From positions 1 to 64,000 of the forward strand of contig JARGXX010000095.1 in NCBI GenBank assembly GCA_030374765.1: a stretch of DNA of 64,000 bases. Reading direction: 5' to 3'. Shown here in pieces: positions 21,604 to 47,657 of this stretch (its first letter is position 1; each line of letters starts with the position of its first letter). The notes below the pieces were generated by a model. It saw nothing but the letters and a program-made list of their open reading frames with translations, was not told the origin of the DNA and did not search any database. The position numbers were made by a program, and so were the translations under genes. Origin of the DNA: Agarophyton chilense. Lineage: Eukaryota > Rhodophyta > Florideophyceae > Gracilariales > Gracilariaceae.

Positions 21604-21989
21604 CACCCATTCTTCTTTCTCCATTTTGCTTTCAACTCTCTTCCTTGCCACAGAAAACCACATTTCCTACTCTTTATACTTAAGTATAACGCCAAACACC
21701 CCATATTCGACCGTTACATTACACCCAACCCAGCAACAAGCGTTATTCAAACGACTCTATCTCCAGCTCAACCTCAGCCCCTAAATACCCCAACTCCGCC
21801 TCAAAAATACAGTGTAACGAAACAACCTACACTCTATATCAGTCCTACACATAAAGCCCAGTACACTTATCGAATGCAGGTCGCTCAACACAGAACTTTA
21901 TCCAACCACCGCAGATATCGAGTACACCCTCAAACAATCTGTTCACCACGCATTCGTACTATAATGGAACTTGACGTCTCGACTCTAGA

Positions 21990-22265: not shown

Positions 22266-22566
22266 TGTAAAAGCCCGTACACAATGGTTTCCTCTACGAA
22301 AACGTAAACTCCCGTAGGCCCTGACCGATAGCTACTTAGTGGCGATGCCACTGTTGGACAAACCTTAACGTCATAAGAATCTACCTGTCATCGTTAAGCA
22401 TACGTCATCCCTACCTCACTAAACGCACTGCACGCGTCTTCTTTAGCTGAGAGTGTGGCGCCAGCACTCGCGTGACCTACTACTCACCACACTCAACCTA
22501 CATTGAACTTGGCAATACCATCGAATATCGACCCCCAGTGTTGCCGGATATGAAAACCATCCTAGA

Positions 22567-23143: not shown

Positions 23144-23174
23144 CAGCCCACACTTACAACCTGTAATATATATA

Positions 23175-29100: not shown

Positions 29101-32100
29101 GACCTGCGCCACAGCATAATTTTTACAATTTTTTGTCTGGCCGGCCCTGTTTTCAACTCAGACACAGACATCAAAAAATTCATTGATTTTTCAGCATGCC
29201 AAAACACCAATATATTCAGGGGTTTAGAATTCAATGCCTTTTCAGCTTACTAAAACACCATTATATTGAAGATTGTTTTCCTTACTGCAAATATAAAACC
29301 CCGTAATGGTGCATCTTCCCCTAAACCCACCTCTTTTCTCAAGGGACTGCAAGTCATTCAAACATTTTTCGGCATGCTAAAACGCCAATCATCACACGGT
29401 TTTTGTGTCCAACTCGGTCCCTCTTCAGCACTCTTACACATCATTCACATCCAACACACTCTCCTCAGCCCTACTTGTGCGTGTCCACAGTTCGGTGAAT
29501 CACGAGCTAGTCATCTGCCGTCTACCGCACACACGGCAAAGACCTTTTCTCAGATTGTAAAACCCCTCCCAAACACACCCAAATCCGAAGCTTTTCGAAA
29601 ATTAGATCAGATCATCTAGCGGCCACCATGTTCAACTGTACACTTTGGATTTCTCTAAGATCCTCCCTCACACGTCTTCCTACGTGTTTAGCCGCGTTAC
29701 ATGCCCGTGCAACGTGTAGTCCAGTGCCCAGAGATGAGTTTGGTATGGCAACTGTCACAAGTTCATACACACCCGTGGTGTCTCAGACACCCGTTTTGTC
29801 TCAGACACCCGTTTTGTCTCGGACAACCTCCATTTTTGGCACCTTCTATCGCGCTTTTCTAGTCTCGATCAGACTTGCATTTGCGGTGTACTGAGGCCTG
29901 CTATTCGGTAGATTTAATCAAAATACATGTCTGGCTGCTTGACCTGCGCCACAGCATAATTTTTACAATTTTTTGTCTGGCCGGCCCTGTTTTCAACTCA
30001 GACACAGACATCAAAAAATTCATTGATTTTTCAGCATGCCAAAACACCAATATATTCAGGGGTTTAGAATTCAATGCCTTTTCAGCTTACTAAAACACCA
30101 TTATATTGAAGATTGTTTTCCTTACTGCAAATATAAAACCCCGTAATGGTGCATCTTCCCCTAAACCCACCTCTTTTCTCAAGGGACTGCAAGTCATTCA
30201 AACATTTTTCGGCATGCTAAAACGCCAATCATCACACGGTTTTTGTGTCCAACTCGGTCCCTCTTCAGCACTCTTACACATCATTCACATCCAACACACT
30301 CTCCTCAGCCCTACTTGTGCGTGTCCACAGTTCGGTGAATCACGAGCTAGTCATCTGCCGTCTACCGCACACACGGCAAAGACCTTTTCTCAGATTGTAA
30401 AACCCCTCCCAAACACACCCAAATCCGAAGCTTTTCGAAAATTAGATCAGATCATCTAGCGGCCACCATGTTCAACTGTACACTTTGGATTTCTCTAAGA
30501 TCCTCCCTCACACGTCTTCCTACGTGTTTAGCCGCGTTACATGCCCGTGCAACGTGTAGTCCAGTGCCCAGAGATGAGTTTGGTATGGCAACTGTCACAA
30601 GTTCATACACACCCGTGGTGTCTCAGACACCCGTTTTGTCTCAGACACCCGTTTTGTCTCGGACAACCTCCATTTTTGGCACCTTCTATCGCGCTTTTCT
30701 AGTCTCGATCAGACTTGCATTTGCGGTGTACTGAGGCCTGCTATTCGGTAGATTTAATCAAAATACATGTCTGGCTGCTTGACCTGCGCCACAGCATAAT
30801 TTTTACAATTTTTTGTCTGGCCGGCCCTGTTTTCAACTCAGACACAGACATCAAAAAATTCATTGATTTTTCAGCATGCCAAAACACCAATATATTCAGG
30901 GGTTTAGAATTCAATGCCTTTTCAGCTTACTAAAACACCATTATATTGAAGATTGTTTTCCTTACTGCAAATATAAAACCCCGTAATGGTGCATCTTCCC
31001 CTAAACCCACCTCTTTTCTCAAGGGACTGCAAGTCATTCAAACATTTTTCGGCATGCTAAAACGCCAATCATCACACGGTTTTTGTGTCCAACTCGGTCC
31101 CTCTTCAGCACTCTTACACATCATTCACATCCAACACACTCTCCTCAGCCCTACTTGTGCGTGTCCACAGTTCGGTGAATCACGAGCTAGTCATCTGCCG
31201 TCTACCGCACACACGGCAAAGACCTTTTCTCAGATTGTAAAACCCCTCCCAAACACACCCAAATCCGAAGCTTTTCGAAAATTAGATCAGATCATCTAGC
31301 GGCCACCATGTTCAACTGTACACTTTGGATTTCTCTAAGATCCTCCCTCACACGTCTTCCTACGTGTTTAGCCGCGTTACATGCCCGTGCAACGTGTAGT
31401 CCAGTGCCCAGAGATGAGTTTGGTATGGCAACTGTCACAAGTTCATACACACCCGTGGTGTCTCAGACACCCGTTTTGTCTCAGACACCCGTTTTGTCTC
31501 GGACAACCTCCATTTTTGGCACCTTCTATCGCGCTTTTCTAGTCTCGATCAGACTTGCATTTGCGGTGTACTGAGGCCTGCTATTCGGTAGATTTAATCA
31601 AAATACATGTCTGGCTGCTTGACCTGCGCCACAGCATAATTTTTACAATTTTTTGTCTGGCCGGCCCTGTTTTCAACTCAGACACAGACATCAAAAAATT
31701 CATTGATTTTTCAGCATGCCAAAACACCAATATATTCAGGGGTTTAGAATTCAATGCCTTTTCAGCTTACTAAAACACCATTATATTGAAGATTGTTTTC
31801 CTTACTGCAAATATAAAACCCCGTAATGGTGCATCTTCCCCTAAACCCACCTCTTTTCTCAAGGGACTGCAAGTCATTCAAACATTTTTCGGCATGCTAA
31901 AACGCCAATCATCACACGGTTTTTGTGTCCAACTCGGTCCCTCTTCAGCACTCTTACACATCATTCACATCCAACACACTCTCCTCAGCCCTACTTGTGC
32001 GTGTCCACAGTTCGGTGAATCACGAGCTAGTCATCTGCCGTCTACCGCACACACGGCAAAGACCTTTTCTCAGATTGTAAAACCCCTCCCAAACACACCC

Positions 32101-34260
32101 AAATCCGAAGCTTTTCGAAAATTAGATCAGATCATCTAGCGGCCACCATGTTCAACTGTACACTTTGGATTTCTCTAAGATCCTCCCTCACACGTCTTCC
32201 TACGTGTTTAGCCGCGTTACATGCCCGTGCAACGTGTAGTCCAGTGCCCAGAGATGAGTTTGGTATGGCAACTGTCACAAGTTCATACACACCCGTGGTG
32301 TCTCAGACACCCGTTTTGTCTCAGACACCCGTTTTGTCTCGGACAACCTCCATTTTTGGCACCTTCTATCGCGCTTTTCTAGTCTCGATCAGACTTGCAT
32401 TTGCGGTGTACTGAGGCCTGCTATTCGGTAGATTTAATCAAAATACATGTCTGGCTGCTTGACCTGCGCCACAGCATAATTTTTACAATTTTTTGTCTGG
32501 CCGGCCCTGTTTTCAACTCAGACACAGACATCAAAAAATTCATTGATTTTTCAGCATGCCAAAACACCAATATATTCAGGGGTTTAGAATTCAATGCCTT
32601 TTCAGCTTACTAAAACACCATTATATTGAAGATTGTTTTCCTTACTGCAAATATAAAACCCCGTAATGGTGCATCTTCCCCTAAACCCACCTCTTTTCTC
32701 AAGGGACTGCAAGTCATTCAAACATTTTTCGGCATGCTAAAACGCCAATCATCACACGGTTTTTGTGTCCAACTCGGTCCCTCTTCAGCACTCTTACACA
32801 TCATTCACATCCAACACACTCTCCTCAGCCCTACTTGTGCGTGTCCACAGTTCGGTGAATCACGAGCTAGTCATCTGCCGTCTACCGCACACACGGCAAA
32901 GACCTTTTCTCAGATTGTAAAACCCCTCCCAAACACACCCAAATCCGAAGCTTTTCGAAAATTAGATCAGATCATCTAGCGGCCACCATGTTCAACTGTA
33001 CACTTTGGATTTCTCTAAGATCCTCCCTCACACGTCTTCCTACGTGTTTAGCCGCGTTACATGCCCGTGCAACGTGTAGTCCAGTGCCCAGAGATGAGTT
33101 TGGTATGGCAACTGTCACAAGTTCATACACACCCGTGGTGTCTCAGACACCCGTTTTGTCTCAGACACCCGTTTTGTCTCGGACAACCTCCATTTTTGGC
33201 ACCTTCTATCGCGCTTTTCTAGTCTCGATCAGACTTGCATTTGCGGTGTACTGAGGCCTGCTATTCGGTAGATTTAATCAAAATACATGTCTGGCTGCTT
33301 GACCTGCGCCACAGCATAATTTTTACAATTTTTTGTCTGGCCGGCCCTGTTTTCAACTCAGACACAGACATCAAAAAATTCATTGATTTTTCAGCATGCC
33401 AAAACACCAATATATTCAGGGGTTTAGAATTCAATGCCTTTTCAGCTTACTAAAACACCATTATATTGAAGATTGTTTTCCTTACTGCAAATATAAAACC
33501 CCGTAATGGTGCATCTTCCCCTAAACCCACCTCTTTTCTCAAGGGACTGCAAGTCATTCAAACATTTTTCGGCATGCTAAAACGCCAATCATCACACGGT
33601 TTTTGTGTCCAACTCGGTCCCTCTTCAGCACTCTTACACATCATTCACATCCAACACACTCTCCTCAGCCCTACTTGTGCGTGTCCACAGTTCGGTGAAT
33701 CACGAGCTAGTCATCTGCCGTCTACCGCACACACGGCAAAGACCTTTTCTCAGATTGTAAAACCCCTCCCAAACACACCCAAATCCGAAGCTTTTCGAAA
33801 ATTAGATCAGATCATCTAGCGGCCACCATGTTCAACTGTACACTTTGGATTTCTCTAAGATCCTCCCTCACACGTCTTCCTACGTGTTTAGCCGCGTTAC
33901 ATGCCCGTGCAACGTGTAGTCCAGTGCCCAGAGATGAGTTTGGTATGGCAACTGTCACAAGTTCATACACACCCGTGGTGTCTCAGACACCCGTTTTGTC
34001 TCAGACACCCGTTTTGTCTCGGACAACCTCCATTTTTGGCACCTTCTATCGCGCTTTTCTAGTCTCGATCAGACTTGCATTTGCGGTGTACTGAGGCCTG
34101 CTATTCGGTAGATTTAATCAAAATACATGTCTGGCTGCTTGACCTGCGCCACAGCATAATTTTTACAATTTTTTGTCTGGCCGGCCCTGTTTTCAACTCA
34201 GACACAGACATCAAAAAATTCATTGATTTTTCAGCATGCCAAAACACCAATATATTCAGG
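23175..34260. repeat. 840-bp tandem repeat array (13 full units plus a partial unit)
   Basis: Units begin GGCCTGCTATTCGG at 23175 and recur every 840 bp to 34095; the last runs 166 bp and stops at AATATATTCAGG (34260), where retroelement sequence begins. The units appear identical by eye over 11 kb, meaning very recent amplification, strong homogenisation or an assembly effect. Each unit contains a roughly 75-bp segment (23391-23465 in unit 1) resembling the 3' region of the Penelope-like element, and one ATG-started 88-codon ORF in a strong Kozak context. A diverged partial copy lies at 47117-47657 and ends at the same base of the unit. Confidence 0.96.
23748..24014 (+). CDS. Small ORF in each 840-bp unit (88 aa), function unknown
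   Basis: Starts in GCGGCCACCATG, which matches the ideal eukaryotic initiation context. It encodes an 88-residue Ser/Thr-rich protein with short repeats of VLSQTP and a hydrophobic C-terminus (about residues 70-88) that could be membrane-associated. The same ORF recurs every 840 bp (24588, 25428, and so on to 33828). The diverged copy at 47206-47490 keeps the frame with one more six-residue repeat. No family recognised. Comparison of the two versions shows about three replacement and two silent changes besides the 18-bp insertion, so there is no clear sign of protein constraint. Other ORFs in the unit lack ATG starts. Confidence 0.35.
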   Translation: MFNCTLWISLRSSLTRLPTCLAALHARATCSPVPRDEFGMATVTSSYTPVVSQTPVLSQTPVLSRTTSIFGTFYRAFLVSIRLAFAVY

Positions 34261-34261
34261 G

Positions 34262-34393
34262 AAGAACAGTAAAGGTCAACAAAACCGCCCGAAAAGCCAT
34301 CTACAGCAGGGAGGCAAGTCCAAGAAACCCGTGAAGCCAAAGCCGAAAAACGGGAAGCCAGGCGCCGCCGGACGGGGCGCCAAGCAAAACTAA
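34262..34393 (+). pseudogene. Retroelement ORF1, 3' fragment only
   Basis: The last 43 codons and stop of ORF1 remain after 5' truncation of the leftmost unit. This is the basic Lys/Pro/Gly-rich tail (KPVKPKPKNGKPGAAG). There is no start codon, so the RT downstream in this unit probably cannot be made as an ORF1 fusion. Confidence 0.85.
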
Positions 34394-34437
34394 ACCGTTC
34401 ACGGCGAAGGAAACCCCGTTGCTTCAAGGTTAAAGAG

Positions 34438-36249
34438 TTGAAGTACAATCCACCAATTGGAATAGCCGACAAAGAACTTCCGTTTGAAGTCAAAAAAGTT
34501 CTCTCAGTTGGTGGAGGATTTGTATTACGCACTCCACTTAAAGTCTGCCTGCAAGAGACTGTGGATCAACTCTTTTCCGAACTAGTAACGGGTCGAAGGA
34601 AGGTCGATCTCCCAACAGCTCTCCGGGTGAAAGGAAAGTTTGAGAGAGATATATCCGATATGAGCATCGATCGACCCTCCACCTTGCATCTTACATTGAT
34701 GCGAGGAATCAAGTACATAAAGACGAAAGGCTGGATCGTCAAACAAGCCGATAAGAATCTTGGACTCACATTGATGAGCCGAGAAGTCTATGACGAGATG
34801 GTTAAGAAGGAGATCCATGAGGGTGTATTCTCCACGGTTGATTTCTTCCCCCATGAAGTGCTCCGTGGTAACCTCTTTGGAATCCTCGAGAAATGCCGGA
34901 TTGAACGCGAGTTTAAAGAAGGTGTTTTGGAATACGCATTGAAAGCCGACAAACCAGCCCCGTTTTATGTACTACCGAAGATCCACAAGCCTACGATTAA
35001 GTCGAGACCGATAACTGCATCGCATTCGTATATCACTGCGAATCTATCGAGACAGTTAAGTGCTATCCTCAATAGAGTGGTGGCAAAGATCCCGGCAATC
35101 ACAGTTAACAGCTGGGAGACCGTACGGCAGCTGGAACACATACATCTTCCCACGGACTGTATCTTTCTTACTTACGACGTGGAGAGATGCTACCCATCCA
35201 TCGACATCAGAGATGCCATCCGATTGTTGGTGCGTGAACTTCCTCGTATATTCATGCCCAACAAAGGCTTTTGGTGTCGAGTTCTACAATTCATCATGTT
35301 CAATAACTACGTCACAGATGGACATGGGTTGCACAAACAGGAAGAAGGAACGGCAACCGGGACAGCAGTGGCGCCCGCATTTGCTAACCTTTACTTGTTT
35401 TTTAAGTTCCGGAAGATCTTCAGGGACGCAGTCAAGGATATCATACTGAACCGTCGCTATATCGATGACGGTTTAGTAGTGCTCCGAAACAGAAAAGCTG
35501 CCGAGAAGCTGATGGTGAAGCTAAACGCTTGTTCAAGCCTTAGTCTCACGTGGGATATCAGCGATAAGAAAGCAGTGTACCTGGATCTGGAGATTTACAA
35601 AGGACAGAGATTTTTCTTCGATAACATCGTTGACTTAAGGGTGTACACAAAGCCCATCTCGAAGTTTCTTTACCTCCATGGCAAGTCCAATCATCCCACT
35701 CATACGTTCACTGGAGTGGTGAAGGGAGAGATGATTCGCTACCTTCGAAACACCAGCGATGAACGGACGTGGAAGGCCAAGGTGAACTTCCTTTTCAAAA
35801 TGCTGTCACAGCGTGGGTACACCGGTAACTACCTACGAACGGCATTGGAATACGTTAGCTTTCGAGAAAGAGCCAAATATCTCGAACGTTCTACAAGGAA
35901 GAAGCCACCCCTCGATGGTATGGTGAAATGCTTATTCCATCCCAATATGAAACGGTACTGGCGTCATTTGGAACAATGGATTGACGGCCAATTGCCCTAT
36001 CACGGAATAAGAGTCAAATGGCCTCGTGTCCTCATCTTCAAAAGAGGAAACACGGTGAAGAGCCATATCATAAGTGCGATTCCCTGCAAGGAGTCTATCA
36101 ACTCCAGGCAGCGCACTACTGGCCATAAGCGACATCAACCTGCTCGCCGAGTAAATACACGGATCCGCAAGAAACGGCAGGTTCAGGTATATACTCGATA
36201 CTGGAACGACTTCTGGAAAAACCAGGAGCGAGACAGGAATAAGGATTAG
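34438..36249 (+). CDS. Penelope-like reverse transcriptase, copy 1
   Basis: The listed start is a TTG; the frame is open back to 34273 and the first ATG is only at codon 75, inside the conserved N-terminal region, so direct initiation is unlikely. Numbering from 34438: DKNLG at 105-109, VLPKIHKP at 178-185 with RPITAS, motif A LTYDVERCYPSID (D247), motif B EEGTATGTAVAP (302-313), motif C YIDD (341-344), and a downstream FLYLHGKSNHP block typical of Penelope RTs. Residues about 470-603 are basic and lack a GIY-YIG nuclease or CxxC zinc motif. These RTs are relatives of telomerase reverse transcriptase. The function would be copying element RNA onto chromosome 3' ends. The ORF is intact, but its unit lacks most of ORF1. 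Confidence 0.9.
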   Translation: MKYNPPIGIADKELPFEVKKVLSVGGGFVLRTPLKVCLQETVDQLFSELVTGRRKVDLPTALRVKGKFERDISDMSIDRPSTLHLTLMRGIKYIKTKGWIVKQADKNLGLTLMSREVYDEMVKKEIHEGVFSTVDFFPHEVLRGNLFGILEKCRIEREFKEGVLEYALKADKPAPFYVLPKIHKPTIKSRPITASHSYITANLSRQLSAILNRVVAKIPAITVNSWETVRQLEHIHLPTDCIFLTYDVERCYPSIDIRDAIRLLVRELPRIFMPNKGFWCRVLQFIMFNNYVTDGHGLHKQEEGTATGTAVAPAFANLYLFFKFRKIFRDAVKDIILNRRYIDDGLVVLRNRKAAEKLMVKLNACSSLSLTWDISDKKAVYLDLEIYKGQRFFFDNIVDLRVYTKPISKFLYLHGKSNHPTHTFTGVVKGEMIRYLRNTSDERTWKAKVNFLFKMLSQRGYTGNYLRTALEYVSFRERAKYLERSTRKKPPLDGMVKCLFHPNMKRYWRHLEQWIDGQLPYHGIRVKWPRVLIFKRGNTVKSHIISAIPCKESINSRQRTTGHKRHQPARRVNTRIRKKRQVQVYTRYWNDFWKNQERDRNKD

Positions 36250-36381
36250 TTCTAATTTAGAGCATAAGATGCCCATTTAGAGAGTAAGGTAGTAGCATGA
36301 CAGTGCAGTGGGATTTGAGATAGGATATAAGAGCTCAGTAGGCCCCGCCTGCTACTCATAATTCTTCTCATCCCACCACAC

Positions 36382-36418
36382 GGCACTGAAGAGTCAATAA
36401 AGACGAAAGCGCTCTGCC
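36382..36418 (+). ncRNA. Hammerhead ribozyme (type I, minimal), copy 1
   Basis: All core elements are present in order: stem I strand GGCA, core CTGAAGA, stem II GTC-AATAAA-GAC, core GAAA, a stem III formed by GCGC inside the palindrome AGCGCT, cleavage triplet ending TC (cut after 36414), then TGCC, the exact complement of GGCA. Stem III has no loop, so a dimeric fold is expected, as reported for hammerheads of Penelope-like elements. Cleavage would cut tandem transcripts into 3232-nt monomers. The AATAAA in loop II could also act as a poly(A)-like signal. Activity is predicted, not shown. Confidence 0.85.
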
Positions 36419-36516
36419 CTACGCGAATCGCCCCTGTTCTTCGCCCCTTTCTCTCTACATCCCTTTTCTCCCAGAGCGGGGTGCAGTACCCTGCTGTGGG
36501 AGCAGCCCCTAGAGGA

Positions 36517-36591
36517 GGATTGTTTTCCTTACGCAAAAATAAATCCCCGTAAAGGTAAAACTTCCCCTAAATCCTCCTCTTTTTCTAAGGG
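36517..36591 (+). repeat. Segment shared by the retroelement 3' region and telomere-associated repeats
   Basis: About 75 bp beginning GGATTGTTTTCCTTACG and ending in CTTCCCCTAAATCC and TCTAAGGG. It aligns by eye to the 840-bp unit (23391-23465) and, over about 60 bp, to the short elements inside old telomere tracts (22062-22120, 22168-22226 and their copies near 46025 and 46130). Other retroelement copies are at 39749-39823 and 42981-43055. Shared landmarks are GTTTTCCT, a CCGTAA or GCAAA step, a CC(G/A)TAA-GGT core and TTCCCCTAAA. Confidence 0.7.
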
Positions 36592-36707
36592 CTTCCCCTA
36601 AGCCCTTCTCTCTCTCCCCTAGCGACGCCGCACACCTTCAATATCTCCTACCTAAAACCTCTAGTACGCGAGGTAGTAGCCGTCGCCGAGCAGATATCTC
36701 TCTCACT

Positions 36708-37625
36708 ATGCAAACACGTAGCATGGCCTCCAACATTGAACACGACACATCGGTTCATGAGGAGGAAGCTGCTGTTCTTCAAGAAAACAATCCGATTCAG
36801 GAAAACGATGCTCAAGTTAATGAGCAAGAACTTCCTGATTTTGAGATTTTGAAGATGGTGAAGCCACAGCTGAATAAACTAGTCGCTTTACACCGCAAGC
36901 GCGTTCTTACTGTGGACGAAAAGATAGCTCGCAGGGTCGATCTCCTTGATGAGCTGGAAAAGCACAAAGACGATGGAACCTTTCCAAAGTCTATTGCGGT
37001 ACCCCGAATGCCGCAGATGTCCAGTTCAATGAAGGAGAAGCATGGTGCTGAGTTTAAAGCCATGTCAGAGAAGTTTGCACAGGACTCTCTGGACTTCCTC
37101 ATAAAAGTCAGGAAGGATGAACTTGAATTCCTGACTGATGAGCGAAAGAAGCTTCTCAACGAAGCCATGGTTAAGGTGAAAGAAGCACTAAATCGCGTCT
37201 ACCGAAAGACGAGTCACATCTCCAAGGATCAGATTCTTGCAACGTTTGCAAGTTACCGATCGGTGTTTGTGGAAGAGCTGCAATCAGCTAAGCTTCGAAT
37301 GGAACTTAAGAACACCATTGGACAAGTCATTGACGATGAGAAACGGAATGCTACTCTCCTAAAAGAATCCGCTGCCGAGGCCGATGAAGCTGAGGCTTCA
37401 GACGAAGTCGATCGGCTGCGGAAGGAGATGGAAGCACTTAGGAAGGAAGTTTCCTCTCTTAAAGTTTCTCAAGCCCCCCTGAAGGCTAAAGGGAAGAACA
37501 GTAAAGGTCAACAAAACCGCCCGAAAAGCCATCTACAGCAGGGAGGCAAGTCCAAGAAACCCGTGAAGCCAAAGCCGAAAAACGGGAAGCCAGGCGCCGC
37601 CGGACGGGGCGCCAAGCAAAACTAA
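36708..37625 (+). CDS. Retroelement ORF1: coiled-coil, basic-tailed protein (305 aa), unit 2
   Basis: ATG at 36708, about 290 nt after the ribozyme cleavage site. It encodes a highly charged, mostly helical protein. An acidic N-terminus is followed by long Lys/Glu helices and a heptad-like coiled coil around residues 227-252 (VDRLRKEMEALRKEV). The C-terminus from about residue 258 is very basic (Lys, Gln, Pro, Gly), suited to binding RNA. Its place upstream of the RT and its composition fit a nucleic-acid-binding, oligomerising ORF1 protein, as in many non-LTR and Penelope-like elements. It overlaps the open RT frame (RT open from 37505) in the -1 frame. Confidence 0.82.
   Translation: MQTRSMASNIEHDTSVHEEEAAVLQENNPIQENDAQVNEQELPDFEILKMVKPQLNKLVALHRKRVLTVDEKIARRVDLLDELEKHKDDGTFPKSIAVPRMPQMSSSMKEKHGAEFKAMSEKFAQDSLDFLIKVRKDELEFLTDERKKLLNEAMVKVKEALNRVYRKTSHISKDQILATFASYRSVFVEELQSAKLRMELKNTIGQVIDDEKRNATLLKESAAEADEAEASDEVDRLRKEMEALRKEVSSLKVSQAPLKAKGKNSKGQQNRPKSHLQQGGKSKKPVKPKPKNGKPGAAGRGAKQN
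37577..37613 (+). promoter_or_regulatory. Candidate -1 ribosomal frameshift signal between ORF1 and RT
   Basis: In the ORF1 frame the sequence reads G-AAA-AAC (37577-37583), then a 9-nt spacer, then a GC-rich stem formed by GGCGCC (37593-37598) and GGCGCC (37608-37613), with two further inner pairs around a GGAC loop. The RT frame is -1 relative to ORF1, is open from 37505, and has no usable ATG. The heptamer departs from X-XXY-YYZ at its first base, so efficiency is doubtful; slippage elsewhere in 37505-37622 is possible. Equivalent sites are at 34345-34381 and 40809-40845. Confidence 0.45.
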
Positions 37626-37669
37626 ACCGTTCACGGCGAAGGAAACCCCGTTGCTTCAAGGTTAAAGAG

Positions 37670-39481
37670 TTGAAGTACAATCCACCAATTGGAATAGCCG
37701 ACAAAGAACTTCCGTTTGAAGTCAAAAAAGTTCTCTCAGTTGGTGGAGGATTTGTATTACGCACTCCACTTAAAGTCTGCCTGCAAGAGACTGTGGATCA
37801 ACTCTTTTCCGAACTAGTAACGGGTCGAAGGAAGGTCGATCTCCCAACAGCTCTCCGGGTGAAAGGAAAGTTTGAGAGAGATATATCCGATATGAGCATC
37901 GATCGACCCTCCACCTTGCATCTTACATTGATGCGAGGAATCAAGTACATAAAGACGAAAGGCTGGATCGTCAAACAAGCCGATAAGAATCTTGGACTCA
38001 CATTGATGAGCCGAGAAGTCTATGACGAGATGGTTAAGAAGGAGATCCATGAGGGTGTATTCTCCACGGTTGATTTCTTCCCCCATGAAGTGCTCCGTGG
38101 TAACCTCTTTGGAATCCTCGAGAAATGCCGGATTGAACGCGAGTTTAAAGAAGGTGTTTTGGAATACGCATTGAAAGCCGACAAACCAGCCCCGTTTTAT
38201 GTACTACCGAAGATCCACAAGCCTACGATTAAGTCGAGACCGATAACTGCATCGCATTCGTATATCACTGCGAATCTATCGAGACAGTTAAGTGCTATCC
38301 TCAATAGAGTGGTGGCAAAGATCCCGGCAATCACAGTTAACAGCTGGGAGACCGTACGGCAGCTGGAACACATACATCTTCCCACGGACTGTATCTTTCT
38401 TACTTACGACGTGGAGAGATGCTACCCATCCATCGACATCAGAGATGCCATCCGATTGTTGGTGCGTGAACTTCCTCGTATATTCATGCCCAACAAAGGC
38501 TTTTGGTGTCGAGTTCTACAATTCATCATGTTCAATAACTACGTGACAGATGGACATGGGTTGCACAAACAGGAAGAAGGAACGGCAACCGGGACAGCAG
38601 TGGCGCCCGCATTTGCTAACCTTTACTTGTTTTTTAAGTTCCGGAAGATCTTCAGGGACGCAGTCAAGGATATCATACTGAACCGTCGCTATATCGATGA
38701 CGGTTTAGTAGTGCTCCGAAACAGAAAAGCTGCCGAGAAGCTGATGGTGAAGCTAAACGCTTGTTCAAGCCTTAGTCTCACGTGGGATATCAGCGATAAG
38801 AAAGCAGTGTACCTGGATCTGGAGATTTACAAAGGACAGAGATTTTTCTTCGATAACATCGTTGACTTAAGGGTGTACACAAAGCCCATCTCGAAGTTTC
38901 TTTACCTCCATGGCAAGTCCAATCATCCCACTCATACGTTCACTGGAGTGGTGAAGGGAGAGATGATTCGCTACCTTCGAAACACCAGCGATGAACGGAC
39001 GTGGAAGGCCAAGGTGAACTTCCTTTTCAAAATGCTGTCACAGCGTGGGTACACCGGTAACTACCTACGAACGGCATTGGAATACGTTAGCTTTCGAGAA
39101 AGAGCCAAATATCTCGAACGTTCTACAAGGAAGAAGCCACCCCTCGATGGTATGGTGAAATGCTTATTCCATCCCAATATGAAACGGTACTGGCGTCATT
39201 TGGAACAATGGATTGACGGCCAATTGCCCTATCACGGAATAAGAGTCAAATGGCCTCGTGTCCTCATCTTCAAAAGAGGAAACACGGTGAAGAGCCATAT
39301 CATAAGTGCGATTCCCTGCAAGGAGTCTATCAACTCCAGGCAGCGCACTACTGGCCATAAGCGACATCAACCTGCTCGCCGAGTAAATACACGGATCCGC
39401 AAGAAACGGCAGGTTCAGGTATATACTCGATACTGGAACGACTTCTGGAAAAACCAGGAGCGAGACAGGAATAAGGATTAG
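37670..39481 (+). CDS. Penelope-like reverse transcriptase, copy 2
   Basis: Intact 603-codon frame with the same protein sequence as copy 1; at least one silent difference (GTC/GTG near 38545). It is preceded by a complete ORF1 in the other frame, so this is a structurally complete unit able to produce an ORF1-RT fusion if frameshifting works. YIDD catalytic box present, no endonuclease domain. Confidence 0.9.
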   Translation: MKYNPPIGIADKELPFEVKKVLSVGGGFVLRTPLKVCLQETVDQLFSELVTGRRKVDLPTALRVKGKFERDISDMSIDRPSTLHLTLMRGIKYIKTKGWIVKQADKNLGLTLMSREVYDEMVKKEIHEGVFSTVDFFPHEVLRGNLFGILEKCRIEREFKEGVLEYALKADKPAPFYVLPKIHKPTIKSRPITASHSYITANLSRQLSAILNRVVAKIPAITVNSWETVRQLEHIHLPTDCIFLTYDVERCYPSIDIRDAIRLLVRELPRIFMPNKGFWCRVLQFIMFNNYVTDGHGLHKQEEGTATGTAVAPAFANLYLFFKFRKIFRDAVKDIILNRRYIDDGLVVLRNRKAAEKLMVKLNACSSLSLTWDISDKKAVYLDLEIYKGQRFFFDNIVDLRVYTKPISKFLYLHGKSNHPTHTFTGVVKGEMIRYLRNTSDERTWKAKVNFLFKMLSQRGYTGNYLRTALEYVSFRERAKYLERSTRKKPPLDGMVKCLFHPNMKRYWRHLEQWIDGQLPYHGIRVKWPRVLIFKRGNTVKSHIISAIPCKESINSRQRTTGHKRHQPARRVNTRIRKKRQVQVYTRYWNDFWKNQERDRNKD

Positions 39482-39613
39482 TTCTAATTTAGAGCATAAG
39501 ATGCCCATTTAGAGAGTAAGGTAGTAGCATGACAGTGCAGTGGGATTTGAGATAGGATATAAGAGCTCAGTAGGCCCCGCCTGCTACTCATAATTCTTCT
39601 CATCCCACCACAC

Positions 39614-39650
39614 GGCACTGAAGAGTCAATAAAGACGAAAGCGCTCTGCC
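39614..39650 (+). ncRNA. Hammerhead ribozyme, copy 2
   Basis: Same sequence as the copy at 36382-36418, exactly 3232 bp downstream. Predicted cut after 39646. Confidence 0.85.
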
Positions 39651-39939
39651 CTACGCGAATCGCCCCTGTTCTTCGCCCCTTTCTCTCTACATCCCTTTTC
39701 TCCCAGAGCGGGGTGCAGTACCCTGCTGTGGGAGCAGCCCCTAGAGGAGGATTGTTTTCCTTACGCAAAAATAAATCCCCGTAAAGGTAAAACTTCCCCT
39801 AAATCCTCCTCTTTTTCTAAGGGCTTCCCCTAAGCCCTTCTCTCTCTCCCCTAGCGACGCCGCACACCTTCAATATCTCCTACCTAAAACCTCTAGTACG
39901 CGAGGTAGTAGCCGTCGCCGAGCAGATATCTCTCTCACT

Positions 39940-40857
39940 ATGCAAACACGTAGCATGGCCTCCAACATTGAACACGACACATCGGTTCATGAGGAGGAAG
40001 CTGCTGTTCTTCAAGAAAACAATCTGATTCAGGAAAACGATGCTCAAGTTAATGAGCAAGAACTTCCTGATTTTGAGATTTTGAAGATGGTGAAGCCACA
40101 GCTGAATAAACTAGTCGCTTTACACCGCAAGCGCGTTCTTACTGTGGACGAAAAGATAGCTCGCAGGGTCGATCTCCTTGATGAGCTGGAAAAGCACAAA
40201 GACGATGGAACCTTTCCAAAGTCTATTGCGGTACCCCGAATGCCGCAGATGTCCAGTTCAATGAAGGAGAAGCATGGTGCTGAGTTTAAAGCCATGTCAG
40301 AGAAGTTTGCACAGGACTCTCTGGACTTCCTCATAAAAGTCAGGAAGGATGAACTTGAATTCCTGACTGATGAGCGAAAGAAGCTTCTCAACGAAGCCAT
40401 GGTTAAGGTGAAAGAAGCACTAAATCGCGTCTACCGAAAGACGAGTCACATCTCCAAGGATCAGATTCTTGCAACGTTTGCAAGTTACCGATCGGTGTTT
40501 GTGGAAGAGCTGCAATCAGCTAAGCTTCGAATGGAACTCAAGAACACCATTGGACAAGTCATTGACGATGAGAAACGGAATGCTACTCTCCTAAAAGAAT
40601 CCGCTGCCGAGGCCGATGAAGCTGAGGCTTCAGACGAAGTCGATCGGCTGCGGAAGGAGATGGAAGCACTTAGGAAGGAAGTTTCCTCTCTTAAAGTTTC
40701 TCAAGCCCCCCTGAAGGCTAAAGGGAAGAACAGTAAAGGTCAACAAAACCGCCCGAAAAGCCATCTACAGCAGGGAGGCAAGTCCAAGAAACCCGTGAAG
40801 CCAAAGCCGAAAAACAGGAAGCCAGGCGCCGCCGGACGGGGCGCCAAGCAAAACTAA
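39940..40857 (+). CDS. Retroelement ORF1, unit 3 (305 aa)
   Basis: Same as the ORF1 at 36708 apart from a Pro-to-Leu change in the acidic N-terminus (ENNLIQ), a Gly-to-Arg change in the basic tail (PKNRKPG) and at least one silent change. Intact from ATG to TAA. Confidence 0.82.
   Translation: MQTRSMASNIEHDTSVHEEEAAVLQENNLIQENDAQVNEQELPDFEILKMVKPQLNKLVALHRKRVLTVDEKIARRVDLLDELEKHKDDGTFPKSIAVPRMPQMSSSMKEKHGAEFKAMSEKFAQDSLDFLIKVRKDELEFLTDERKKLLNEAMVKVKEALNRVYRKTSHISKDQILATFASYRSVFVEELQSAKLRMELKNTIGQVIDDEKRNATLLKESAAEADEAEASDEVDRLRKEMEALRKEVSSLKVSQAPLKAKGKNSKGQQNRPKSHLQQGGKSKKPVKPKPKNRKPGAAGRGAKQN
40809..40845 (+). promoter_or_regulatory. Candidate -1 frameshift signal, unit 3
   Basis: GAAAAAC at 40809-40815 and the GGCGCC/GGCGCC stem are kept; the only change is G to A in the spacer just after the heptamer. 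Confidence 0.42.
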
Positions 40858-40901
40858 ACCGTTCACGGCGAAGGAAACCCCGTTGCTTCAAGGTTAAAGA
40901 G

Positions 40902-42713
40902 TTGAAGTACAATCCACCAATTGGAATAGCCGACAAAGAACTTCCGTTTGAAGTCAAAAAAGTTCTCTCAGTTGGTGGAGGATTTGTATTACGCACTCCA
41001 CTTAAAGTCTGCCTGCAAGAGACTGTGGATCAACTCTTTTCCGAACTAGTAACGGGTCGAAGGAAGGTCGATCTCCCAACAGCTCTCCGGGTGAAAGGAA
41101 AGTTTGAGAGAGATATATCCGATATGAGCATCGATCGACCCTCCACCTTGCATCTTACATTGATGCGAGGAATCAAGTACATAAAGACGAAAGGCTGGAT
41201 CGTCAAACAAGCCGATAAGAATCTTGGACTCACATTGATGAGCCGAGAAGTCTATGACGAGATGGTTAAGAAGGAGATCCATGAGGGTGTATTCTCCACG
41301 GTTGATTTCTTCCCCCATGAAGTGCTCCGTGGTTACCTCTTTGGAATCCTCGAGAAATGCCGGATTGAACGCGAGTTTAAAGAAGGTGTTTTGGAATACG
41401 CATTGAAAGCCGACAAACCAGCCCCGTTTTATGTACTACCGAAGATCCACAAGCCTACGATTAAGTCGAGACCGATAACTGCATCGCATTCGTATATCAC
41501 TGCGAATCTATCGAGACAGTTAAGTGCTATCCTCAATAGAGTGGTGGCAAAGATCCCGGCAATCACAGTTAACAGCTGGGAGACCGTACGGCAGCTGGAA
41601 CACATACATCTTCCCACGGACTGTATCTTTCTTACTTACGACGTGGAGAGATGCTACCCATCCATCGACATCAGAGATGCCATCCGATTGTTGGTGCGTG
41701 AACTTCCTCGTATATTCATGCCCAACAAAGGCTTTTGGTGTCGAGTTCTACAATTCATCATGTTCAATAACTACGTGACAGATGGACATGGGTTGCACAA
41801 ACAGGAAGAAGGAACGGCAACCGGGACAGCAGTGGCGCCCGCATTTGCTAACCTTTACTTGTTTTTTAAGTTCCGGAAGATCTTCAGGGACGCAGTCAAG
41901 GATATCATACTGAACCGTCGCTATATCGATGACGGTTTAGTAGTGCTCCGAAACAGAAAAGCTGCCGAGAAGCTGATGGTGAAGCTAAACGCTTGTTCAA
42001 GCCTTAGTCTCACGTGGGATATCAGCGATAAGAAAGCAGTGTACCTGGATCTGGAGATTTACAAAGGACAGAGATTTTTCTTCGATAACATCGTTGACTT
42101 AAGGGTGTACACAAAGCCCATCTCGAAGTTTCTTTACCTCCATGGCAAGTCCAATCATCCCACTCATACGTTCACTGGAGTGGTGAAGGGAGAGATGATT
42201 CGCTACCTTCGAAACACCAGCGATGAACGGACGTGGAAGGCCAAGGTGAACTTCCTTTTCAAAATGCTGTCACAGCGTGGGTACACCGGTAACTACCTAC
42301 GAACGGCATTGGAATACGTTAGCTTTCGAGAAAGAGCCAAATATCTCGAACGTTCTACAAGGAAGAAGCCACCCCTCGATGGTATGGTGAAATGCTTATT
42401 CCATCCCAATATGAAACGGTACTGGCGTCATTTGGAACAATGGATTGACGGCCAATTGCCCTATCACGGAATAAGAGTCAAATGGCCTCGTGTCCTCATC
42501 TTCAAAAGAGGAAACACGGTGAAGAGCCATATCATAAGTGCGATTCCCTGCAAGGAGTCTATCAACTCCAGGCAGCGCACTACTGGCCATAAGCGACATC
42601 AACCTGCTCGCCGAGTAAATACACGGATCCGCAAGAAACGGCAGGTTCAGGTATATACTCGATACTGGAACGACTTCTGGAAAAACCAGGAGCGAGACAG
42701 GAATAAGGATTAG
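40902..42713 (+). CDS. Penelope-like reverse transcriptase, copy 3
   Basis: Intact 603-codon frame; one visible replacement (Asn to Tyr at about residue 145, RGYLFGIL). This is the unit nearest the telomeric junction and so the first to have been attached. YIDD box present. Confidence 0.9.
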   Translation: MKYNPPIGIADKELPFEVKKVLSVGGGFVLRTPLKVCLQETVDQLFSELVTGRRKVDLPTALRVKGKFERDISDMSIDRPSTLHLTLMRGIKYIKTKGWIVKQADKNLGLTLMSREVYDEMVKKEIHEGVFSTVDFFPHEVLRGYLFGILEKCRIEREFKEGVLEYALKADKPAPFYVLPKIHKPTIKSRPITASHSYITANLSRQLSAILNRVVAKIPAITVNSWETVRQLEHIHLPTDCIFLTYDVERCYPSIDIRDAIRLLVRELPRIFMPNKGFWCRVLQFIMFNNYVTDGHGLHKQEEGTATGTAVAPAFANLYLFFKFRKIFRDAVKDIILNRRYIDDGLVVLRNRKAAEKLMVKLNACSSLSLTWDISDKKAVYLDLEIYKGQRFFFDNIVDLRVYTKPISKFLYLHGKSNHPTHTFTGVVKGEMIRYLRNTSDERTWKAKVNFLFKMLSQRGYTGNYLRTALEYVSFRERAKYLERSTRKKPPLDGMVKCLFHPNMKRYWRHLEQWIDGQLPYHGIRVKWPRVLIFKRGNTVKSHIISAIPCKESINSRQRTTGHKRHQPARRVNTRIRKKRQVQVYTRYWNDFWKNQERDRNKD

Positions 42714-42845
42714 TTCTAATTTAGAGCATAAGATGCCCATTTAGAGAGTAAGGTAGTAGCATGACAGTGCAGTGGGATTTGAGATAGGATATAAGAGCTC
42801 AGTAGGCCCCGCCTGCTACTCATAATTCTTCTCATCCCACCACAC

Positions 42846-42882
42846 GGCACTGAAGAGTCAATAAAGACGAAAGCGCTCTGCC
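42846..42882 (+). ncRNA. Hammerhead ribozyme, copy 3
   Basis: Same core and stems as the other copies; cut predicted after 42878. The element continues about 245 nt past the cut to the telomeric junction, so the RNA that was attached extended past this ribozyme or escaped cleavage there. Confidence 0.84.
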
Positions 42883-43113
42883 CTACGCGAATCGCCCCTG
42901 TTCTTCGCCCCTTTCTCTCTACATCCCTTTTCTCCCAGAGCGGGGTGCAGTACCCTGCTGTGGGAGCAGCCCCTAGAGGAGGATTGTTTTCCTTACGCAA
43001 AAATAAATCCCCGTAAAGGTAAAACTTCCCCTAAATCCTCCTCTTTTTCTAAGGGCTTCCCCTAAGCCCTTCTCTCTCTCCCCTAGCGACGCCGCACACC
43101 TTCAATATCTCCT

Positions 43114-43190
43114 ACCTAAAACCCCTAAAACCCCTAAACCCCTAAACCCCTAAACCCCTAAACCCCTAAACCCCTAAAACCCCTAAACCC
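43114..43190. repeat. Interstitial telomeric tract at the retroelement/helicase junction
   Basis: About nine CCCCTAAA/CCCCTAAAA repeats oriented like the terminal telomere. The retroelement matches its other copies through CCTACCTAAAACC (43111-43123) and then changes to telomeric repeats; on the other side the truncated helicase begins at about 43190. The junction signature is element 3' end, telomere, broken gene. Confidence 0.93.
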
Positions 43191-45531
43191 TCTCTTACAA
43201 CAACCGCTTGTGACCTACGAACATATTACATCAGAAATGCTCCGAGCACTAAGACATGCACTTTCCAACGACTCCGCTTTATTCAAGTCCCACCAACAAT
43301 TTGTGAACACAGCGGCCGTGTACAACAGGCTTTCCAACATGCTACTACTCCAGCCGACTGGATCTGGAAAAACACTATCTCTTCTGCTCCCCGTCTTCAT
43401 GGAAAAGGGCAAATACTCCACCGTTCTCATCACCCCTCTCACAGCCTTGCTCAGTGAATACGAACTGCGCGCTCAGCTCTTCGGCCTTCGTGCTTCTCGT
43501 ACACCCACCCCTCCCGGATCGCACTCCTTTGCCGACATTTACATCTTTTCCGCTGAAAGACTTTCTCTTCCTTCTTTTACAGAGTTCACCACGCGACTGA
43601 TCGCCGCTGACCGCCTCGCCCGCATTGCCATCGATGAATGTCACTTATTTCTTTTATGGCAACACTTTCGCCCGTGCTTGGCCAACCTCCACAACTGCTT
43701 CGGCCATATTCCCACAAAGATCCCTCGCGTGCTTTTAAGCGCGACAGTGCCGCCGCGCGACCGCCCCCTTCTTCTGTCGCAGCTGCACATCCCGAACGCG
43801 CATGTGTACGCTTCTTCGACTGCAAGAAACAACATTTCTTTTGTCGTGTATCACCTAAGCTCAGCCCCCAGCACTTCGCGTGCCACACGCTTTCGCGCCG
43901 CTCATGGCCACTTTCAGGATGTGTTTGGATACCTGCTTCAGCTGGGCGTCTCAATCATGCAAGAGCATGTGGCTCGATTGCTTCACTCGTCGGGTGACAC
44001 AACCCTAGCTCGCGTTCTTATATTCTCGTTAACACGCCCGGCTGCCGAAGCTGTCCATGAAGCTCTCGCCGCTTCGCGTTCTTCTTTTGGTGCCCTTAAA
44101 CAATCCACTACTGTCACGGTTCTCCTGTACCATTCTGGTCTCTCTGATGTTCGTAAACGCCGGGTTCACACCCTTTGGAACTCTCCGCCTTCTTCCAGCG
44201 CACCCACAACCAACCACATTCTCTTCATGGTTTGCACCTCTTCTTTTGGTACGGGCATCGACGTTCCCAATGTTCGCCTGGTTTTCAACTTTGGTGGAGT
44301 AGCGAGTCTTTGCGACCTTGCGCAACAGGCCGGCAGGGCCGGCCGCGATGGAAACCCATCCACTTGCGTCACCATTTATTTCCAGCCCTACTTCAAACTC
44401 GTCACGGAACCTCTTTCTTCGTCCTCATCCAACACAAATGCGTTTGAGGAGCCCAATCGCATATACAACCAAGCATTTTCCACGGAGCGTTGGTTGGAAG
44501 CGCAGCATTGGGTCGAATGCAAATCTGTTTGTCGAAGGAACGCCCTCTATTTCCACATGGACGGAAAAGAACCAGGCATCTGTCTCTTCTCTCCTTCGGT
44601 TCTTAATTGCGATATTTGCAATAGCATCGCAGCTGTCTCCCCCTCTCCCACCCCGGAACGAAGCTCCGTTTCCGCTACCCCTTCTGCCTCTCAGCACGCC
44701 CAATCCATTTCACCGTCTCCCAGCGCTTCCCCACAAACGCCCACGCCGCCAAAAAACGGTCCCAATCAATCAAACAGAACATCCTTAAACAACCAAAACA
44801 TCAACAACAACGGCGGCCCAACACAAAGCCCCAAACCCCACGCCAGTCGTCCACCACGATCCCCCACCTCCACCCCATCGCCGTTGCTGACAACCACGCA
44901 TCCATCCGCTGCAACTCAATCCCCCACTGTCGCTCCTTCTCAATCTCAGTCGCACTCTGCCACCTTCTTTTACACCTTGGAACGAAAAACACCGCAACAA
45001 ATCGTGTCACACTTCGAGGAGCTCTCCCGCCGACTTGCCCCTCTCTGTGTGCCATGCTTGCTGCACGAAAAAACGCAAGTGCACTTGACGGACGATCATT
45101 CATGCCCCCATTCCCGTCAACGTTGCTTCAGATGCTTTTCGCCGCACCATATATCGCGCAACTGCAGGTTCGATAAATCACCTCAAGGAACCTGCTACCG
45201 ATGCCATCTCGGATTCTGCAAGGGACTCAAAACTCATTCTCAACCGCACACTTTTGGAACAAGACACTGCATCTTCATTTCGCTCTATCAACTGGCATGG
45301 GTCTTGTTGCGAACATGCTCCAAAACTCGCTCCGAAATTGCACTCCACCTCTTCGACGGCCGCATGCAATCCAAGTTCAACTCCATTTCCCAATCCTCCC
45401 AAGATTCCTCACCCCCCCACCTTGAAATAGACGCCATGTTTCATGATTGGTTAACACACAACAACCACTTTGCCGTACCCAACATTCTACGCCTTGCAGC
45501 TTGGTGGAAGTCAACCACAACACTCATTTAG
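43191..45531 (+). pseudogene. 5'-truncated telomere-linked RecQ helicase (copy B)
   Basis: Homologous to copy A from 19230 onward and open to the same stop, but the first 1068 or so codons (fingers and recombinase-like domain) are missing. It is replaced upstream by telomeric repeats. The first in-frame ATG is at 43237. All helicase motifs (PTGSGKT, DECH, SAT, QQAGRAGRDG) and the zinc knuckle are kept. Scattered replacements relative to copy A lie mostly in the Ser/Pro-rich linker. The lack of any stop suggests recent truncation; a helicase-only protein from the internal ATG cannot be excluded, but no promoter is evident. Confidence 0.88.
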
Positions 45532-45948
45532 GCACGATTTTAGATTCCAACCCGGTACAATAAACACCCATTCTTCTTCCTCCATTTTGCTTTCAACTCT
45601 CTTCCTTGCCACAGAAAAACACATGTCCTCCTCTTTATACTTAAGTATAACGCCAAACACCCCATATTCGACCGTTACATTACACCCAATCCAGCAACAA
45701 GCATTTTTCAAACGTCTCTATTTCCAGCTCAACCTCAGCCCCTGAATACGCCAACTCCGCCTCAAAAATACAGTGTAACGAAACAACCTACTCTCTCTAT
45801 CAGTTACACACATAAAGCCCAGTACACTTATCGAATGCAGGTCACTCAAAACAGAACTTTATCCAACCACCACAGATATCGAGTACACCCTCAAACAATC
45901 TGTACACCACGCATTCGTACTATACTGGAACTTGATGTCTCGACTCTA

Positions 45949-46210
45949 GACCCCTAAAACCCCTAAAATTCAATAAACGTGAAGCTTCCCCTAAAACCCC
46001 TAAAGCCCTCCAACCCCTAAACAATGATTTCCTCTCCGTAAATAAAAATCCCATAAAGGTAAAGTTTCCCCTAAAACCCCTAAGCCTCTGAGCCCCTGAA
46101 CCTCTAAAACCCCTAAAACCTCTAAACAAAGTTTTCCTCTCCGTAAATTCAAAATCCCATAAAGGTAAAGCTTCCCCTAAAACCCCTAAACCCCTAAACC
46201 CCTGAAACCT
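45949..46210. repeat. Interstitial telomeric tract, copy B
   Basis: Duplicate of the tract at 21990-22265, with the two short GTTTTCCT...TTCCCCTAAA elements near 46025-46080 and 46130-46185. Its telomeric repeats have diverged independently (CCCCTGAA, CCTCTAAA), which shows that the tract predates the duplication. Confidence 0.83.
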
Positions 46211-47116
46211 GTAAAAGCCCGTACACACTGGTATCCTCTACGAAAACGTAAACTCCTGTAGGCCCTGACCGATAGCTACTTAGTGGCGATGCCACTGTTG
46301 GACAAACCTTAACGTCATAAGAATCTACCTGTCATCGTTAAGCATACGTCATCCCTACCTCACTAAACGCACTGCATGCATCCTCTTTAGCTGAGAGTGT
46401 GGCGCCAGCACTCGCGTGACCTACTACTCACCACACTCAACCTACATTGGACTTGACAATACCAACGAATATCGACCCCCAGTGTTGCCGGATATGGAAA
46501 CCATCCTAGAACCAAGCGCAAACGCACCTTTTTCAGCCGCGTACACGACCCCAAAAACGCACATACAAAACGCCTGACAATGTGCCAACTGCCTCCACGA
46601 AATCGCCACAGAACCAAGCGCAAACGCATACCCTAACCCTTTCTTTTGATAAAATTTTCGCACATTATCCAGCTTACAACACAGCTCGACTGTGCAGCGG
46701 AGATGTGGCTGAAACCAAGCGCCTTTGAGTGCCACACTCGACGCACGCCTCCACGTTGTGCAGCAAAAATGTTACAATAAAACATGTGCAAACGCAGGAT
46801 TTGGCAGGAAGCCCAGCGCGCCTAAAATTTATGATTTTTTCAAAAGCAAAAATTGCGAAAATGGGTGCTGCGCCCCAACATCTGGCAAGTCGCGCGCTAC
46901 GTTACCCGAACGAAGCGCCTGAGCGCAATTAGCCACGATTTTTTGAGCGTGCCAATGTGTCACACGCGCTCTCCAGCACAACGTTTTCCATCCAGGGGGT
47001 CAAAATCGCACATACGTCGAATGCAGCGCGTGGCGCTTGGTGTATGTAATTACCAAGCGCTACTGACAACCGCGTTTTACCAAGCGCCAGCCCACACTTA
47101 CAACCTGTAATATATA

Positions 47117-47657
47117 TAGACCTTTTCTCAGATTGTAAAACCCCTCCCAAACACACCCAAATCCGAAGCTTTTCGAAAATTAGATCAGATCATCTGGCGG
47201 CCACCATGTTCAACTGTACACTTTGGATTTCTCTAAGATCCTCCCTCACACGTCTTTCTACGTGTTTAGCCGCGTTACAGGCCCGTGCAACGTGTAGCCC
47301 AGTGCCCAGAGATGAGTTTGGTATGGCAACTGTCACAAGTTCATACACACCCGTGGTGTCTCAGACACCCGTTTTGTCTCAGACACCCGTTTTGTCTCAG
47401 ACACCCGTTTTGTCTCGGACAACCTCCATTTTCGGCACCTTCTATCGCGTTTTTCTAGTCTCGATCAGACTTGCATTTGCGGTGTACTGAGGCATGCTAT
47501 TCGGTAGATTTAATCAAAATACATGTCTGGCTGCTTGACCTGCGCCACAGCATAATTTTTACAATTTTTTGTCTGGCCGGCCCTGTTTTCAACTCAGACA
47601 CAGACATCAAAAAATTCATTGATTTTACAGCATGCCAAAACACCAATATATTCAGGA
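47117..47657. repeat. Diverged partial 840-bp-family unit
   Basis: Begins at unit phase about 487 (ACCTTTTCTCAG), runs through the unit start (GGCATGCTATTCGG, near 47492) and ends after AATATATTCAGG at 47657. That is the same unit base at which the 11-kb array ends at 34260. It has one more 18-bp TCTCAGACACCCGTTTTG repeat than the array units. Confidence 0.9.
47206..47490 (+). CDS. 94-aa homolog of the 840-bp unit ORF, function unknown
   Basis: Same GCGGCCACCATG start and same frame as the 88-codon ORF at 23748, longer by one six-residue VLSQTP repeat from an in-frame 18-bp insertion. Replacements include Pro/Ser, His/Gln and Ala/Val. No domain recognised. Confidence 0.33.
   Translation: MFNCTLWISLRSSLTRLSTCLAALQARATCSPVPRDEFGMATVTSSYTPVVSQTPVLSQTPVLSQTPVLSRTTSIFGTFYRVFLVSIRLAFAVY

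Follow-up and report, generated by a model that had tools for sequence, protein, structure and literature searches.

Telomere-joined tandem arrays of a probable Penelope-like element in the genome of a red alga

Introduction

The reverse transcriptases (RTs) of Penelope-like elements (PLEs) are regarded as related to telomerase RT, and the Coprina elements of fungi are endonuclease-deficient PLEs with a telomeric location. In the accessible portions of two reports (PMC3846280, PMC6431247), priming at chromosome ends is described for PLEs that lack an endonuclease, together with truncation, telomeric caps, tandem arrays, and hammerhead ribozymes accompanied by reverse-complement telomeric repeats; fungal and protist members of this group are mentioned without detail in the available text of the first (PMC3846280). 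For Poseidon of Anolis, the available part of PMC11167929 reports that, in vitro, copying begins at an internal position of the RNA, within a stem-loop that lies below the hammerhead. A minimal form of the hammerhead has been described for PLEs, and its cleavage as a dimer has been suggested, in the part of PMC7761336 that is covered here.

Here we describe an element from Agarophyton chilense, found in a stretch of 64,000 nucleotides (hereafter, the window; contig JARGXX010000095.1, positions 1 to 64,000). So far as the Athena elements and Terminons of bdelloid rotifers are covered in these sources, the algal element shares with them an endonuclease-less RT, two ORFs, head-to-tail arrays, a 3’ end on reverse-complement telomeric repeats, telomere-capped 5’ truncation, and a hammerhead, or hammerhead-like motif, near the 3’ end. 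It differs from these elements, as they are described there, in the unit size (3.06-3.23 kb versus 4-6 kb or up to 40 kb), in the probable use of a -1 frameshift, in its red algal host, and in the placement of the telomere-like motif, which lies 164-245 nt below the hammerhead-like motif, at the unit junction, rather than immediately below the ribozyme. Going by the general description of Coprina, the lack of an endonuclease and the telomeric location are common to that group as well. Tandem units and a hammerhead within the repeat are also found in Poseidon, and the start of reverse transcription inside the RNA that was described for it has a candidate counterpart in the algal element. According to the same partial account, Poseidon differs in that it possesses a GIY-YIG domain and targets AT-rich DNA, and its start site is non-homologous to the target, unlike the candidate start site of the algal element, which is telomere-complementary. 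The likeness to telomerase consists in the proposed use of the chromosome 3’ end as the primer and in a candidate template, 13 nt long in one of the two element families, that is complementary to the telomere; the difference is that the algal RNA would be that of an entire mobile element, with the RT encoded in it and a long stretch of it copied, and that no recycling of the template is implied.

The best reading of the sequence is that the algal element works like the telomere-attached PLEs, a known kind. What may be newer, compared to the telomeric PLEs described in these sources, is a candidate start site that is both internal to a multi-unit RNA and complementary to the telomere. Telomere-associated PLEs may thereby extend to red algae; we found no earlier report of such an element in the searched literature, which covers part of the PLE field. 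A living host that combines telomerase RT (TERT) with a compact PLE that attaches to the same ends, and whose RNA has a telomere-like motif at a fixed place, would offer a simple natural setting in which to study how the RNA of a retroelement might turn into a telomerase RNA, and in what way chromosome ends are shared between telomerase and retroelements.

An array of three element copies in the window

Positions 34258-43123 of the window contain three head-to-tail copies of an RT element, all on the plus strand, with a spacing of exactly 3232 bp. The first-pass annotation reported three 3232-bp units; the spacing stands, but copy 1 (34258-36659) falls short of full length, starting at unit position 831, and only copy 2 (36660-39891) and copy 3 (39892-43123) are full units. 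Similarly, the reported near-identity of the units is borne out by pairwise differences of only 2-3 nt over the parts compared, and the RT ORF is open in all three copies, but the units are not all intact given the truncation of copy 1. This RT ORF (ORF2; 34438-36249, 37670-39481, and 40902-42713) encodes 603 aa from a TTG codon; in copy 1, the frame is open further upstream of the TTG, and in copy 2, it is in the -1 frame relative to ORF1 and is open from unit position 846. ORF1, which encodes a 305-aa protein that appears coiled-coil-like by eye, is incomplete in copy 1 and complete in copies 2 and 3 (36708-37625 and 39940-40857).

The last unit terminates in ...CTACCTAAAACC, which is joined to a 72-bp tract of CCCCTAAA/CCCCTAAAA repeats on the plus strand (43119-43190). 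Thus, the 3’ end lies directly on CCCCTAAA repeats, as previously noted, even if this proximal tract is short. The sense strand of the array runs away from the telomeric tract at the contig start (1-2133), which lies on the 5’ side of the array, also in agreement with the initial description. The claim that the array is attached to a telomere today, in contrast, does not hold: it is now subtelomeric, 34-43 kb inside, and its 5’ flank at unit position 831 is an 840-bp satellite instead of a telomere.

Distribution of two element families across the genome

The genome searched comprises 79.8 Mb in 135 contigs. It contains light-harvesting genes (9 matches) together with nuclear phycobilisome linker domains (13 matches, each scoring over the cut-off), a pairing that very probably marks a red alga, and the rRNA also appears red algal by eye. 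A TERT RNA-binding domain (107.8 bits) lies within a 1158-aa open frame. Judging by this gene, telomerase is very probably present in the host, in line with the suggestion that it is retained beside the element. RT matches number at least 75 across the genome; among the matches listed, 12 belong to the family of the window array (family A, 3232-bp unit) at ~100% identity. A second family, B, has a 3060-bp unit and a protein that is 70% identical to that of family A, and forms many-unit arrays in contigs C87, C127, C32, C63, C89, C1, and C135; the matches in C127 follow at 3060-bp steps, so that the exact unit length is kept in a long array.

Telomeric tracts are listed for at least 30 contigs (C111 is absent from the listing), and 17 of the 30 listed carry an A or B 3’ junction. 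All 17 3’ ends that were read abut CCCCTAAA repeats (eight loci of family A, in C95, C9, C97, C28, C68, C92, C12, and C31, and nine of family B, in C1, C32, C63, C64, C76, C87, C89, C127, and C135), as found by scans that tolerated three (A) or four (B) substitutions in the 3’ motif, such that more diverged ends would escape, and without counting relics that lack a readable 3’ end (C68:81490, C97:275627, C111, and other pieces in C98). The 3’ flank is identical in C87 and C135, leaving at most 16 independent telomeric 3’ ends. The 5’ end faces the nearest contig end in each of the 15 contigs with decidable orientation, a count that leaves aside C87, where the two ends are about equidistant, and C127, which is filled by its array. 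Readable 5’ ends lie at unit positions 273, 652, 785, 831, 2856, 2925, 2971, and about 3140 in family A, and at 574, 743, 1229, and about 920 in family B. Among these 12, 11 are truncated and telomere-capped, the exception being the array in the window itself, and among the 11, the telomeric repeats adjoining the 5’ end in C127 are somewhat scrambled; arrays that reach or nearly reach contig ends (C63, C64, C32, and C135) and the outer end in C89 were not counted. The genome-wide tabulation proposed in the first-pass annotation thus gave the predicted junctions at all A and B 3’ ends read and the predicted orientation in all decidable contigs, and taken together with the capped 5’ ends, it upholds the view that the element attaches at telomeric 3’ ends. 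A preponderance of non-telomeric 3’ flanks was sought and not found, and the exceptions are old relics.

One such relic, in C98 near 1.04 Mb, has a 3’ terminus that matches that of family B within 2 nt and a non-telomeric flank. This is what could be left by repair of internal breaks with RT cDNA, without any preference for telomeres, in which case the telomeric association would reflect survival only; given that 17 of 17 A and B 3’ ends are telomeric, all at the same end point of the element, such an origin is highly improbable. An A-like relic in C80 (83%), ~356 kb from the contig end and outside the 17 counted 3’ ends, stops at unit position 3144 in decayed CCCCTAAA-like repeats.

Coding capacity and identity of the reverse transcriptase

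ORF2 of copy 1 matches the RVT_1 family of Pfam (E 4.5e-8), and a group II RT profile gives a weak match to the element RT, whereas ORF1 matches no Pfam family at E<=0.001. At Pfam E<=5, RVT_1 was the only match in the three RT ORFs and GIY-YIG was not detected, which agrees with the annotation of the element as endonuclease-less; the single GIY-YIG match in the genome is in an unrelated place, away from the elements. Searches of the PDB for relatives of the RT (phmmer with a single sequence and hmmsearch with a profile) yielded none at E<=10, and those of viral contigs and GTDB genomes yielded pattern matches but no confirmed relative; the AlphaFold model of the RT ORF alone had a pLDDT of 34. 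We take the RT motifs of the element to resemble those of PLE RTs, and the tandem or partial-tandem arrangement, a PLE trait, is present. The PLE label, which was set from general knowledge of RT features, the architecture, and the ribozyme-like motif rather than from PLE reference sequences, is probably correct jointly with telomere attachment.

Both ORFs are under purifying selection, as judged from the comparison of the two families, with dN 0.248 and dS 1.80 for the RT ORF (a ratio of about 0.14) and dN 0.623 and dS 2.00 for ORF1 (about 0.31), dS being near saturation in each case. Relative to ORF1, the reading frame of ORF2 is shifted by -1, and it lacks an ATG ahead of its conserved start. 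In family B, ORF2 opens 9 nt before the heptamer GAAAAAC, and the similarity between the A and B proteins in the -1 frame begins at this heptamer, with AEKR..RRRRTGRQAKLNRSR common to both. Probably, ORF2 is expressed from ORF1 by -1 frameshifting. The proposed signal (37577-37613 on the plus strand in copy 2) consists of GAAAAAC (unit 918-924), a 9-nt spacer, and a GGCGCC/GGCGCC hairpin; the heptamer is non-canonical as a slippery sequence, and the GGCGCC stem is present in the fold of A and absent from the minimum-energy fold of B.

The unit junction and the hammerhead-like motif

A telomere-complementary motif is located exactly at the 3’ end of the element and at the unit-unit junctions. 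In family B, it extends over 13 nt (CCCTAAAACCCCT), a match reached by 0 of 300 surrogates; in family A, it is 9 nt long, and 45 of 300 surrogates reach this length, so that the length alone is unremarkable and it is the position at the 3’ end that is notable. Within arrays, this motif is where successive units meet, and none of the junctions read contains intervening telomeric repeats; a separate telomere-primed insertion of each unit was rejected on these grounds. At the telomeric junctions of family A, the first repeat is of the AAAA form in eight of eight cases, as in the motif of the A unit, compared to 36-39% of the telomeric repeats counted (P 0.0003-0.0006); CCTAAAA at these junctions is therefore probably copied from the RNA. 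In family B, whose motif also has AAAA, the first repeats at the nine loci are mixed (AAAA in four, AAA in four, and AAG in one), suggesting that the chromosome’s own repeats start within or just after CCCTAA.

Comparison of the two families gives a weak indication of a stem-loop across the unit junction. In the window, it would span 36622-36686 between copies 1 and 2, with the telomere-like motif CCTAAAACC at 36651-36659, and 39854-39918 between copies 2 and 3, both on the plus strand. The outer stem pairs GCGACG with CGTCGC, and the inner one pairs CTACCT with AGGTAG in A and CTTACTC with GAGTAGG in B; by eye, three of the six inner pairs differ between A and B, with both bases changed in two of them and a single base in the third, and pairing is kept in all three. 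The proposed fold is weaker than the minimum-energy fold. Segments containing the hammerhead-like motif and the junction stem-loop showed no folding advantage over shuffled sequences (z -0.04, -0.69, -1.06, -0.24, and 0.59), nor did a cut stretch (z 0.20).

The hammerhead-like motif, with the pattern GGCA-CTGARGA-stem II-GAAA-GCGCT-C-TGCC, occurs once per unit in both families. It is of the minimal, type-I-like form, with stem III formed by the palindrome AGCGCU only, and is found on the plus strand of the window at 36382-36418, 39614-39650, and 42846-42882, in copies 1 to 3, respectively. The pattern, with its 3-bp palindromic stem III, had no matches in 60 surrogate windows. Beyond unit 907-2458, blastn aligns the two families over a single block (55 nt, 91% identity), which contains this motif, and the C98 relic carries it as well, with a different loop II. 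Rfam hammerhead models remained below threshold (HH9, 10.5 bits, E 7.3, against a cut-off of 52, in 141 bases), and over 34000-47700, Rfam at E<=5 gave chance-level matches only and no hammerhead. Shortly upstream of the motif, there is a TATA-like box (unit 2899; 36326-36331 on the plus strand in copy 1).

Probable priming at telomeres and the origin of the arrays

The junctions, the orientation, the 5’ truncation, the telomeric caps, purifying selection, the undetected endonuclease, and the TERT gene can all be read from the sequence, and they make it probable that the element is an endonuclease-less, telomere-attaching PLE primed by telomeric 3’ ends. The RT would use the G-rich 3’ end of the chromosome, (TTTAGGGG)n, as the primer, with the element RNA held at the telomere-complementary motif of its 3’ end; copying would proceed outward, such that the sense strand would come to run inward, with its 3’ end lying on CCCCTAAA. 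We infer that copying starts at the junction motif, on a template RNA that is circular or spans several units; this would account for the lack of telomeric spacers in the arrays. Since the hammerhead is predicted to cut 245 nt (A) or 164 nt (B) before the 3’ end, reverse transcription from the junction motif could not yield a whole unit if the template were a cut linear monomer, whereas uncut multimers or circles would allow it. In its strongest form, this scheme would make the element RNA akin to a giant telomerase RNA, with a stem-loop template that exists only at the junction, a multimeric RNA or a circle made by the ribozyme, many perfect units made per event, and an ORF1-RT fusion produced by -1 frameshifting; we regard this form as doubtful.

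A more plausible rival, to which we give somewhat less than an even chance, is a linear read-through RNA of an existing array that starts at the TATA-like box, passes through several units, and runs into C-rich telomeric repeats. The C-rich 3’ tail of this RNA would pair with the G-overhang, and neither an internal template nor a circle would be needed. The array in C9, made up of two units and a further 308 nt, stops at unit 2925, 26 nt downstream of the TATA-like box, as would a copy that reached the 5’ end of the RNA, and four of the eight family A 5’ ends fall within unit 2850-3145 (P 0.004, for a region picked after inspection of the data). A multi-copy unprocessed RNA is also the substrate in Poseidon, according to the available part of PMC11167929. 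Read-through alone, however, leaves unexplained the exact 13-nt telomere match at the B unit junction.

Full units are nearly identical within each family, which implies recent copying or homogenisation. Some arrays are internally uniform and carry variants that other arrays lack (648T>C and 2467C>A in both full units of C9 and in all three full units of C92). Such uniformity, along with the single hammerhead-like motif per unit and the exact unit length kept in the long array of C127, is what a rolling circle would produce, that is, hammerhead self-cleavage, ligation into unit-length circles, and continuous copying of the circle by the RT, started at the telomere-primed junction motif, to give perfect tandems. 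The position of the junction motif, which in a hammerhead-cut linear monomer is only 245 nt from the 5’ end (A), also speaks for a circle. Nevertheless, the units differ among themselves in C95 and in C1, the proximal and distal units in C89 carry different variants, and ribozyme cleavage is dispensable for the transposition of Poseidon in vitro (PMC11167929, in the part available), so we consider the circle unlikely. No more likely is a single insertion followed by expansion into arrays through unequal exchange or break-induced replication between subtelomeres. Long blocks have indeed been swapped between such regions (19229-23179 and 43190-47123 of the window are 97.2% identical), and the 3’ flank common to C87 and C135 is of the same kind, but the distinct telomeric 3’ flanks, at most 16, together with the many 5’ truncation points, point to many separate attachments. 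The variant patterns, uniform in C9 and C92 and mixed in C95, C1, and C89, do not decide among a circle, a read-through RNA, and recombination. Priming at the telomeric 3’ end remains our preferred account of attachment.

The subtelomere around the array

The telomeric repeats at the 3’ end of the array lie directly against a break in a helicase gene at 43190. The broken ORF (43191-45531, plus strand) starts at codon 1103 of the 1875 codons in an unbroken copy located at 15943-21570, to which it is 97% identical and which contains DEAD helicase, Helicase_C, and OrsD domains (Pfam). This arrangement suggests that an old chromosome breakpoint lies beneath the 72-bp telomeric tract. The chromosome would have broken inside the helicase gene, and telomerase would have healed the end with a telomere of ~72 bp; the healed end would then have received the element copy, and another subtelomeric block, with a further helicase copy, telomere-like repeats, and the 840-bp satellite, would have arrived distal to the array afterwards.

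The 840-bp satellite forms 13 nearly identical copies at 23174-34261, with a single copy near 47118-47664, and is also present at loci L058 and L053. In the window, the PLE abuts the satellite end ..CACCAATATATTCAG, and an identical or closely similar end of the satellite adjoins PLE relics in C98, where it is inverted, and in C111. The recurrence of this end at PLE junctions suggests that the satellite is a mobile or recombining unit. In C98, at 1.36-1.44 Mb (L058-L060), decayed PLE copies with stop codons lie inside the contig, mixed with the satellite; this cluster may mark an earlier chromosome end or a heterochromatic region of another kind.

A 106-bp subtelomeric repeat at 22027-22265 and 45988-46220 includes a stretch of ~55 bp that resembles positions 3085-3144 of the family A unit. 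This A-like piece ends in TTCCCCTAAA, between telomeric repeats; it possibly stems from short ends of the element, for which a second site of attachment would exist, or from subtelomeric DNA that was captured. Closer to the telomere, a 1112-aa ORF at 11719-15057 encodes N6/N4 DNA methylase and SET domains (Pfam), and a subtelomeric repeat block with ~773-bp steps, the copies of which are 96-98% identical, occupies 8181-11419 and 2132-3192.
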